57,525 nt of DNA from Sulfurovum sp. (lineage in GTDB: Bacteria > Campylobacterota > Campylobacteria > Campylobacterales > Sulfurovaceae). The stretch lies in the NCBI GenBank assembly GCA_030826885.1, contig JAUUDF010000029.1, forward strand, positions 1-57,525. The letters are read 5' to 3'. The first letter of the stretch is position 1. Every line of letters begins with the position of its first letter. This document shows, piece after piece, positions 43,008 to 45,780 of the stretch. The position numbers and the translations under genes were made by a program. The notes beneath the pieces were generated by a model. The model was not told the origin of the DNA. It saw only the letters and a list, made by a program, of their open reading frames with translations, and did not search any database.

Positions 43008-43679
43008 TTAGTCTTTTGTCGAGGTCATGCCGGCGCTGAGCCAGTCCTGCATGCCTCCTCTGTACCACTTTATCTTTTCGGGCGGATAGGCTATTTCAAT
43101 GAGAGCGAATATCATGCTCGGTGACTGGCTGCACCATGGGCCGTTGCAAAAGAGTACCAGTGTTTTGGCATGGTCGAAATTGTACTCGCCATCCTTGTTT
43201 TTAGTCACGCCCAGGTGTTTGAGGGCATATTCGAAGTGAAATTCGTAGTCGTCACGGTACTTGAAGTAGCGAAAGGGCATATTGATGGCACCCGGTATGG
43301 TGCGGTAGTCATACCACTCCTCGTTCCTGCTGTCAATAAGCAGTAGATTGGGGTTGTGCTGCATCTCTTTGAGCGTTGCAATCACCTCCAGCTCTCCGTA
43401 GGTTTCAATGTCGTGATCGAGTGTCATCGGCAGTAGCCGACCCTTGGTATGGACAAAAGTGGATTTGCAGGATTCTGGTACCTTTTTGCTTGCATAATGC
43501 TCCGTCCATAGCATCTGGTTGTTGATGGGAATATGCTTGTACTCTTCGGGGATGATCCGCTTGACACTGTATGTTTTGTTGCCTATTTTGACGGTCACAC
43601 CGTCACGTTCAATATCTGAGGCACAAAGAGAAGTAGCGGCAATGCACAGCAACAGTGTACATGTAGTACGTAGTATCAT
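43008..43679 (-). CDS. Exported rhodanese-domain protein
   Basis: 223 residues. A signal peptide (ILRTTCTLLLCIAATSLCA) is followed by a rhodanese fold. The active loop is LFCNGPWCSQS, with two cysteines in place of the usual C-x4-R/S loop; the trailing YRGGMQDWLSAG is typical for rhodaneses. LLIDSRNEEWYDYRTIPGAI supplies the CH2A-type Asp-Arg start. A periplasmic sulfur-transfer role fits a sulfur-oxidising bacterium but is inferred. A good GGAGGAAA ribosome site precedes the ATG. Confidence 0.9.
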   Translation of the reverse strand: MILRTTCTLLLCIAATSLCASDIERDGVTVKIGNKTYSVKRIIPEEYKHIPINNQMLWTEHYASKKVPESCKSTFVHTKGRLLPMTLDHDIETYGELEVIATLKEMQHNPNLLLIDSRNEEWYDYRTIPGAINMPFRYFKYRDDYEFHFEYALKHLGVTKNKDGEYNFDHAKTLVLFCNGPWCSQSPSMIFALIEIAYPPEKIKWYRGGMQDWLSAGMTSTKD

Positions 43680-43775
43680 AATTTTTCCTCCGCATCATGT
43701 TTGGATGTTTCATATTACCGTGTGAAGCGTGTAGTGTGTGTGTAGCAGCTGCACAGGGCATGAAAGGTGTGCAGG

Positions 43776-43801
43776 GTGTCATTTACAAGAATAAATGTAA
43801 A
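43776..43801 (+). repeat. Left terminal inverted repeat of cassette
   Basis: GTGTCATTTACAAGAA then TAAATGTAAA. The inner part is itself a dyad: CATTTACA (43780-43787) and TGTAAATG (43796-43803) around an 8-base spacer. Confidence 0.7.
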
Positions 43802-43912
43802 TGCTGAATTAAATGAGTGGAATGATCCCACTACAATAGGCACAAAGTTATTCGGTTAATGGTATATTTCTTCTGTCCTTGTTGGATGGCTAGTTTTATT
43901 GTACCTCTCTAT

Positions 43913-44125
43913 TTATCTACTTTCTTTAAATATTTTATAAGCTAAATATATGCCAATAATACTGTATAAAACATTATCAAAATCCATACGCAGTACAGTA
44001 GAAGCGATAGCTTTGTAGTAGTTGGGGTGTTCTTTGATATTGATATCTGTAACGGTAACAAACTCAAAAGGTTCATTGGGGAACCTCGAAAAGAACTCGA
44101 GGATTTCTGGTTTTTCTTTTGCCAA
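43913..44125 (-). CDS. Small protein of the cassette, unknown
   Basis: A 70-residue frame with a TTG start; GAGGAT lies six bases upstream (44137-44132), just inside the right inverted repeat. It has an acidic N-terminal half (EFFSRFPNEPFEF), a middle IKEHPNYYKAIA, and a hydrophobic C-terminal helix (VLYSIIGIYLAYKIF) that may bind the membrane. I recognise no family. The good ribosome site and even composition suggest a real gene. Confidence 0.5.
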   Translation of the reverse strand: MAKEKPEILEFFSRFPNEPFEFVTVTDINIKEHPNYYKAIASTVLRMDFDNVLYSIIGIYLAYKIFKESR

Positions 44126-44139
44126 TTTTGTATCCTCTG

Positions 44140-44185
44140 TTTACATTTGTTCTTGTCGAGTGAAGTTTGTTCTTGTAAATGACAC
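44140..44185 (-). repeat. Right terminal inverted repeat of cassette, expanded
   Basis: Read on the minus strand it starts GTGTCATTTACAAGAA, as the left end does. It then has 20 extra bases flanked by the 11-base direct repeat ACAAGAACAAA, and ends AAATGTAAA as the left end does. Only one position differs (C for T) outside the 20-base insertion. Confidence 0.65.
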
Positions 44186-44196
44186 AGGGTATCTTC

Positions 44197-45780
44197 CTAC
44201 ACGTCGTGTGCGACTTTGTAGGTAGGATCATCCTCTTCATAGGTACAGAAGGGACCGGCAATATGCAGCATCTTCTTACAGTCCTCGGAGAGATGGCGCA
44301 GGGTCAGTTTTTTGCCTGCTTTTCGGTATTTTTCAGTCAGTGCATCGATCGCTTCGGCACCGGAGGAGTCCATGACTCTGGCATTTTTGAAGTCGATGAC
44401 CACCTCATTTGGATCTTCATTGACATTGAACTGTTCGTTGAACGAGGTAACCGATCCGAAAAAGAGCGGACCGTCCAGTTCGTATATTTTCCTATTTCCT
44501 TCCATTTTGGTGCGACTGAAGATTTTGGCATGCTTCCACGCAAAGACCAGTGCTGAGATGATAATACCGGCAATAACGGCTACCGCAAGGTCGGCAAAAA
44601 TGGTGATGATAGTGACGGTAATGAGTACGAATGCGTCCGATTTTGGCATATGTTTCAGGCGCTTTACCGATGAGAACTCAAAGGTACCGATGCTCACCAT
44701 AAACATAATTCCTACCAGTACTGCAATGGGGATGGCGGAGATGACATTGGAGAAGCTCACAACGAGCGTAATAAGTAAAATGGCCGCGGTAAAGGAGGAG
44801 AGCCTGCCCAGACCGCCGGAGGTGAAGTTGATAACAGACTGACCGATCATGGCACACCCAGCCATACCGCCAAAGAGTCCGGAAGCGGTATTGCCGATAC
44901 CCAGTGCGACACACTCTTTGTTGCCAGAGCCGCGCTTGCCACCCATCTCATCGAGTACCGAAAGGGTCAGCAGCGATTCGATGAGACCTACGAGTGCGAC
45001 AATGACTGCAGTGGAGAGAATGACCGTCAAAGATTCCCAGCTTGTAAGCAGATGCCAGTCGGGCAGGACAAAGTGGGGCAGGGAGACATGGGAGAGGTCA
45101 GCCATATCGCCGACGGTTTTGGTGTCGATGTGTCCGAAGTAGACGATGAGTGTAATGACAACAATCGCCACAAGACCTGCAGGTACAGCCTTGGAGAGCT
45201 TTGGCAGGTATTGCATGGTCAGCATTGTCGCGGCAATGATGATGTACATGACGTAGTTTTCACGAAAAGAAGCTTTGATGATCTCTATCCACGAATGGTA
45301 CTGCTCCATATGTGCAGGGGCAAGAAAGGGCAGCTGAGCCAATGCGATGACAATGGCAAGCCCGTTGACAAAACCAAAGAGGGCGGGTTGAGGTACGAGA
45401 CGAATGAATTTCCCCATTTTGAATAGACCGATGGCGATCTGGATGAGTCCTGCTATGATGGAGACAATGAGAATGTAGTGCAGCACCATTATGGAAAGTC
45501 CCTCGGCATCGAGGCTGGGGTAGTGCTGTCTGACCCACAGTCCGAGTGAAACGAACACCACGGCTACCGAGCCGGTCGCACCGGAGATCATACCCGGTTT
45601 ACCGCCAAGCAGAGAGGTGACAAGCCCAATGATAAATGCCGCATAGAGACCCACTACCGGAGAGACGCCGGCAATGAAAGAGAAAGCGATGGCTTCGGGA
45701 ACCAGTGCCACGGCAACCAGCGCACCTGAGAGGATGTCGTTCTTAATATTCTGTTTGGAGTAGCGTCGTATCTCTACCAC
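44197..45780 (-). CDS. SulP family anion transporter with STAS domain
   Basis: 527 residues. SulP/SLC26 membrane domain (about 1-400, around 12-14 helices), then a STAS domain (about 420-515). ALVPEAIAFSFIAGVSPVVGLYAAF, GMISGATGSVAVVF and GSGNKECVALGIGN match the family; the STAS part has RVMDSSGAEAI. Substrate may be sulfate, bicarbonate or another anion. GTG start at 45780 with AAGGATTT seven bases upstream; an 8-bp hairpin sits directly before that ribosome site. Its stop lies 12 bases beyond the inverted-repeat cassette. Confidence 0.93.
   Translation of the reverse strand: MVEIRRYSKQNIKNDILSGALVAVALVPEAIAFSFIAGVSPVVGLYAAFIIGLVTSLLGGKPGMISGATGSVAVVFVSLGLWVRQHYPSLDAEGLSIMVLHYILIVSIIAGLIQIAIGLFKMGKFIRLVPQPALFGFVNGLAIVIALAQLPFLAPAHMEQYHSWIEIIKASFRENYVMYIIIAATMLTMQYLPKLSKAVPAGLVAIVVITLIVYFGHIDTKTVGDMADLSHVSLPHFVLPDWHLLTSWESLTVILSTAVIVALVGLIESLLTLSVLDEMGGKRGSGNKECVALGIGNTASGLFGGMAGCAMIGQSVINFTSGGLGRLSSFTAAILLITLVVSFSNVISAIPIAVLVGIMFMVSIGTFEFSSVKRLKHMPKSDAFVLITVTIITIFADLAVAVIAGIIISALVFAWKHAKIFSRTKMEGNRKIYELDGPLFFGSVTSFNEQFNVNEDPNEVVIDFKNARVMDSSGAEAIDALTEKYRKAGKKLTLRHLSEDCKKMLHIAGPFCTYEEDDPTYKVAHDV

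Follow-up and report, generated by a model that had tools for sequence, protein, structure and literature searches.

A 408-bp cassette in Sulfurovum sp. as a probable collapsed derivative of a TnsE-encoding Tn7-like transposon

Introduction

Tn7-like elements typically, though not universally, have 5'-TGT/ACA-3' termini (PMC11406308), and in the Tn6022-like transposons among them TnsE lies near the left end, remote from the core genes (PMC10293859). Here we analyse a 408-bp cassette in a 57,525-nucleotide stretch of Sulfurovum sp. DNA, hereafter the window, which is contig C39 (JAUUDF010000029.1) of a 1.65-Mb draft genome that is 89% complete. The cassette is very probably a collapsed, non-autonomous deletion derivative of a TnsE-encoding Tn7-like transposon with its ends intact, the parent being of a Campylobacterota type that carries tnsE alone at one end. 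It is thus a fresh example of a decayed form of an already known kind.

The full-length relatives of the cassette share with the Tn6022-like transposons the TGT/ACA ends, the 5-bp duplication and a divided gene layout, in which TnsA, TnsB, TnsC and TniQ are encoded near one end and TnsE far from them at the opposite one (PMC10293859), and the Tn6022 end primer given in that source ends in TGTAAATGAC, the letters of the cassette end. They differ in that the cassette has no core gene and that the sites used are argJ, dprA and, probably, mnmG for distant kin, not comM; placement relative to the Tn6022-like clade is made on such features and not on a tree. With the prototype Tn7 (TnsABCDE) they have in common the 5-bp duplication, asymmetric ends with repeated TnsB sites and the C-terminal fold of TnsE, but there are fewer sites per end (one and two) and a solitary tnsE at the opposite end, and no glmS site was seen (PMC11406308). 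Miniature inverted-repeat transposable elements (MITEs) and derivatives such as the Tn3-derived inverted-repeat miniature elements (TIMEs) resemble the cassette in being short, with both ends, a duplication and no transposase; unlike them, the cassette is single-copy, its movement in trans is unproven and its parent family is Tn7-like. A likeness to the IS3 family is confined to about 50 bp of the interior, matching a left end that precedes an HTH_Tnp_1 open reading frame (ORF) in another genome of the genus; this is a nested fragment only, and IS3 does not explain the cassette's own ends.

In the literature searched, we found no paper joining "Tn7-like" with argJ or mnmG; "Tn7-like" and dprA co-occur in three. 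A search combining Tn7-like transposons with Campylobacterota names listed 12 of 700 papers, and the phrase "Tn7-like transposons" occurs in none of those 12. The string "Campylobact" is absent from the main text of PMC10293859 and of a large survey (PMC8649781).

Results and Discussion

Borders and ends of the cassette

The cassette spans 43777-44184, beginning with TGT (43777) and ending with ACA (44184), and CAGGG lies flush against both edges as a 5-bp target duplication; termini and duplication are both as expected of a Tn7-like element. A preliminary description of the window had bounded a 410-bp segment at 43776-44185 with AGG as a 3-bp duplication. The outermost G/C of that segment belongs to the duplication copies, and AGG is merely the middle of CAGGG, the edges and the relatives alike giving 5 bp. 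The perfect 16-base inverted repeat reported there is borne out (arms 43776-43791 and 44170-44185) and consists of a 15-bp terminal repeat plus that outermost G/C. It exceeds chance expectation: the whole window holds no other perfect 15-mer inverted repeat whose arms are at most 2 kb apart (the scan counts it twice, since the repeat is 16 bp long), and 20 first-order Markov random windows held a mean of 0.2 such repeats, none with a flush 5-bp duplication. The interior is AT-rich as described, with a guanine-plus-cytosine fraction of 0.326 against 0.468 for the window. The features of the cassette are as follows.

43772-43776, no strand: left copy of the target duplication, CAGGG (read from the sequence)
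43777-43818, plus strand: end of the tnsA-side type, TGTCATTTACAAGAATAAATGTAAATG..., with a single probable TnsB site, at position 9 (layout set against that of five full elements and four mini-elements)
43816-43866, plus strand: left-end remnant, about 50 bp, of an IS3-like insertion sequence (match to genome G030)
43867-44005, no strand: AT-rich interior, including the unrelated 3' part of the 70-codon ORF (short matches only)
43913-44125, minus strand: 70-codon chimeric ORF, a tnsE start fused to unrelated DNA (ORF list, protein matches)
44006-44125, minus strand: first 40 codons of tnsE, with a TTG start, truncated (tblastn, residue comparison)
44126-44184, minus strand: end of the tnsE-side type, with two probable TnsB sites (positions 9 and 29, counted from the edge) and, further inward, the tnsE ribosome-binding region (end comparison)
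44185-44189, no strand: right copy of the target duplication, CAGGG (read from the sequence)

The layout of the ends was compared with five full elements (those of BM502, L090 and G465 and both of G405, introduced below; the dprA-type ends stand outside this test). A single 17-bp site lies at position 9 of the tnsA-side end in all five, and the tnsE-side end has sites at 9 and 29 in four and at 9 and 30 in G465. The cassette has the same asymmetric arrangement, 9 on the tnsA side and 9 and 29 on the tnsE side, with 2 to 3 mismatches in each site, and its tnsE-side end holds two repeats of about 17 bp set 20 bp apart as in the intact relatives. These repeats are probably TnsB sites, judged by position and repetition. 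The repeat had earlier been extended to 26 bases by allowing a 20-base insertion in one arm; the second pairing of the arms is real, through the inner repeat copy of one end, but the "insertion" is explained by the native two-site layout of the tnsE-side end.

A truncated tnsE inside the cassette

The 70-codon minus-strand ORF, previously taken as the possible cargo of a mobile cassette, exists, but from its sequence it is a truncated tnsE fused to unrelated DNA and not a cargo gene. It is 77.5% identical to TnsE of Sulfurimonas sp. BM502 over residues 1-40 (tblastn), with 30 of 39 residues identical ahead of the break and 2 of 30 beyond it; 178 bp of end plus tnsE are about 80% identical to intact elements. 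A protein search with the ORF, which admits only proteins of similar length, gave ten matches including the ORF itself, with conservation confined to the first 40 or so residues; full TnsE proteins were found by a separate search. The chimeric ORF probably does not encode a working protein.

A TnsE C-terminal domain is found in the parent gene, and a fold comparison of the TnsE protein, made as a re-alignment of the best 1000 Foldseek chains and not as an independent search, recovered a credible PDB relative that sequence searches had missed; PDB searches with the protein and with its alignment had returned no credible relative. TnsE matches occurred in 27 of 398 genomes, an even draw of the order, the window's own fragment included.

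The IS3-like piece is 88% identical to two sites in G030, another genome of the genus, at one of which the matching stretch precedes a truncated HTH_Tnp_1 ORF; from this domain and the end letters we take the piece to be IS3-like. The G030 match was considered as the origin of the cassette ends and rejected, the piece being a nested fragment. For 43867-44005, a nucleotide search gave only short matches in AT-rich DNA, and protein matches stop near residue 40. NCBIfam gave no match for part of a STE_24 protein, for P0002 or for the 70-codon ORF. Neither tnsA, tnsB nor tnsC is present within the cassette, where the ORFs are too short and the one that was read is the tnsE fragment, and there is no complete target selector (TniQ/TnsD or TnsE), tnsE being reduced to 40 codons. 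The cassette is a derivative and not an autonomous member of the Tn7-like elements.

Full-length relatives

Intact relatives measure 14-21 kb where measured and are located after argJ, inside dprA or in what reads, by its translation, as an flhF-like gene. In Sulfurimonas sp. BM502, the element is 14,547 bp long and flanked on each side by ATAAA; one end lies 1 bp past the argJ stop codon, followed by tnsE and cargo, and tniQ, tnsC, tnsB and tnsA lie towards the far end, pointing inward. An element in a Helicobacteraceae bacterium (L090; 16,811 bp, ATAAT) resembles it. Sulfurimonas denitrificans DSM 1251 (G405) has two elements of 17.6 kb each, one at argJ (TTTAT) and one (L094, L187) interrupting the flhF-like gene with GTATG on both sides, and genome G465 has one of 14.2 kb at argJ (ACTAA). 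Two are inside dprA, that of Sulfurovum STE_24 (CGGGC), whose ends are on two contigs, and that of G263 (about 20.5 kb, ATACT). For G405, G465, STE_24 and G263, the duplications come from visual inspection of the flanks. All 12 paired elements examined (5 mini, 7 full) have exact 5-bp duplications at their outermost ends.

Several further observations concern these sites. Two dprA-inserted elements each carry a full dprA homologue of their own directly after tnsE (L044:7696-10248 with L092:13459; L100:1439-3914 with L205:4158), as if replacing the gene that the element breaks; no such copy was found within the roughly 1.5 kb of flank fetched at three other loci beside a cut dprA (L096, L097, L098). 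Distant TnsE genes lie just past the 3' end of an mnmG (gidA)-like gene at eight loci (L105, L106, L107, L108, L109, L111, L114 and L123), making mnmG, a name read from the translation, a probable third attachment site for distant kin. Back-to-back ends with 5 bp between them were seen in three places (L186:7999-8005, L198:1190-1196 and L188:232-284), which suggests repeated insertion at one spot beside another end.

Mini-elements in Sulfurimonas

Four mini-elements other than the cassette, of 901, 1014, 1284 and 1543 bp, lie beside argJ with matching 5-bp duplications. In these, tnsE breaks off after about 128, 51, 120 and 51 codons, respectively (tblastn), the two cut after 51 sharing about the same break; in the cassette the cut falls after 40. 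An end-pattern search of 135 genomes of the genus of S. denitrificans gave at least one match in 32; facing pairs of ends on one contig occurred in eight, full in G405, G465, G476 and G565 and mini in G280, G437, G504 and G545. G476 and G565 share contig numbers and coordinates with L089 and L090 and were counted once. In the other matching genomes the ends were single, back-to-back or unpaired, several at three mismatches and perhaps due to chance; one inner end pair in L090 is a chance pairing. This census takes paired ends only; it omits L190, L194, L195 and L200 (truncated tnsE with one end), L201 (no end) and other single ends, so that the ratio of 5 mini to 7 full is not a frequency.

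The 1,284-bp element (L184) is the most informative. It matches L090 at 97% over 420 bp and at 90% over 805 bp, 15.6 kb being absent, and at the joint ATATT, read by eye, is common to both sides; these alignments give good support to its derivation from a full element of known type by clean loss of the interior. Its tnsE-side end is tandem-duplicated over 79 bp (L184:2074-2153), and of the two copies the outer one has a partner end with matching 5-bp duplication and the inner one has none. Small genes inside the mini-elements encode HicA/HicB (L110), an AAA ATPase (L185) and a DUF5677 protein (L184). The HicA/HicB toxin-antitoxin pair lies between the transposon ends of the 1,014-bp element (L110:809-1415). 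PADLOC, run on five proteins, gave weak matches only, for the L185 ATPase.

The insertion site and the search for other copies

The cassette lies between two genes of the minus strand.

43008-43679, minus strand: rhodanese-like protein (Pfam Rhodanese)
44197-45780, minus strand: SulP-family transporter with a STAS domain (Pfam Sulfate_transp and STAS)

Its tnsE-side edge is 12 bp past the SulP stop codon. Of 78 genomes of the genus, 65 had a match to the rhodanese gene. We fetched 30 loci, one of which was that of the cassette itself; SulP was on the stretch in 15 of the remaining 29, and the 14 without it were dropped. The gap between SulP and rhodanese was 55-172 bp in 14 of the 15 Sulfurovum loci and 810 bp in one (L141), a gap in which no Tn7-like ends were recognisable. 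Its length is approximate, being measured between the aligned residues nearest to it, the last of SulP and the first of rhodanese; since the gap resists base-by-base alignment across species, the empty site is shown by length alone. A scan of the 29 loci with up to 6 mismatches found one lone end match (L147) and no end pair. The 26-bp end pattern, at up to 3 mismatches, occurred among the 78 genomes in the window, G027 and G037 alone; the fetched stretches of the latter two were read and the partner end was not found. These two lone ends match the cassette type and are alike for about 15 bp further inward. From the locus scan, the gap lengths and the end-pattern search, the insertion is therefore private to this genome among the loci seen. 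Conservation of the repeats between rhodanese and SulP in relatives, which would have spoken against mobility, was thus not observed; the other copies that would have spoken for it were likewise not found in the genomes searched. The cassette occurs once in its own draft genome, no match of its length was found in the other 99 genomes searched, and a plasmid search yielded 22 records with nothing beyond weak short matches (best E 1). No TnsB match was found in the own genome, which, at 89% complete, may lack a helper or a second copy. The TnsB query works as a probe, because among 175 genomes of the family it matched 17, including 7 strongly (E below 1e-100).

How the cassette arose

We propose that a full transposon inserted 12 bp downstream of SulP and duplicated CAGGG, because the 5-bp duplication is exact and the edges are TGT/ACA. 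A later deletion of the interior would have removed tnsA, tnsB, tnsC, tniQ, the cargo and tnsE apart from 40 codons; an IS3-like element present in the interior by then would have shrunk to a fragment. What remained would be 408 bp without genes, its two ends keeping their probable TnsB sites in the native layout. It would be inert alone; a matching TnsABC in the cell could in principle excise and move it. The deletion route is inferred by analogy with the 1,284-bp mini-element, the full parent of the cassette itself not having been found, and this is one of several points that weigh against our interpretation. The cassette ends read TGTAAA where the Sulfurimonas consensus has TGTTAC and depart from it by 2 to 3 mismatches in each site, and the lone TGTAAA-type ends at L045:9650-9675 (G037) and L046:5692-5716 (G027) are unaccounted for. 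Nor is the stretch of about 138 bp that separates the IS3-like piece from tnsE accounted for. The site after SulP is not among the recurrent attachment sites, a helper or second copy could be missing from the 89% complete draft, and BM502 TnsE scores 21.6 in Pfam, below the curated cut-off of 26.7.

The strongest alternative, which we nevertheless consider unlikely, is that the transposon had already shrunk when it reached SulP, moved there in trans, MITE-like, by TnsABC with TnsE or TniQ. The preliminary description had imagined something similar, a MITE-like element with cargo moved by an enzyme elsewhere. Of that, both ends, a duplication and the lack of a transposase stand, together with the short length and the terminal inverted repeats usual in MITEs, and the enzyme family can now be named as TnsA/TnsB/TnsC of Tn7-like elements; the cargo, the length of the duplication and dispersal in several copies (one copy, in the 89% complete draft) do not. 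Arrival as a mini-element would agree with the retained sites of full-element ends, with a duplication that is exact at a site other than the usual argJ, and with the recurrence of mini-elements (5 against 7 full among paired ends, short ones being easier to see whole on broken contigs). It is opposed by the lack of a second copy in the own genome or of any of this length in 99 others, by the failure to find TnsB in the own genome, and by the best-documented mini-element, L184, which occupies the usual argJ site and has the look of an in-place deletion, as well as by the argJ position of the other three. In S. denitrificans a full element also lies outside argJ, in the flhF-like gene; this would agree with arrival as a mini-element but favours full-size insertion at SulP equally, so that the SulP site does not decide between deletion in place and such arrival. 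We are correspondingly doubtful of the broader proposition that Campylobacterota hold a recurrent natural class of mini-Tn7-like elements (0.4-1.5 kb, with both ends, 5-bp duplications and no tns core genes, sometimes with HicAB or AAA ATPase cargo) moved in trans by full relatives, and that the cassette reached its unusual site in this way.

It is very improbable that the kept ends serve the host by repelling new Tn7-like insertions. Target immunity is described for Tn7 (PMC11406308), and both ends are kept in the five mini-elements, which were selected that way by the search. However, G405 and G465 each have at argJ a full element that abuts another, probably older, end with 5 bp between, and this older end did not block the insertion, because the full element lies against it. 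That the 70-codon ORF is a native host gene regulated by paired operators, as was also suggested, is scarcely credible despite a ribosome-binding region and ORF just inside one repeat, since in relatives ends of the same kind flank transposons of 14-21 kb that have 5-bp duplications, the conserved part of the ORF is its first 40 or so residues, a tnsE start, and no such end pair occurs in the 29 fetched rhodanese loci.

With collapse of a full Tn7-like transposon as the preferred explanation, an odd 410-bp repeat becomes the insertion scar of a named transposon family. Tn7-like elements of Campylobacterota appear to have shrunk repeatedly to forms without transposition genes, and surveys starting from such genes would miss them. 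The full elements of S. denitrificans may offer a natural system for studying mobilisation in trans and what a stand-alone TnsE does.
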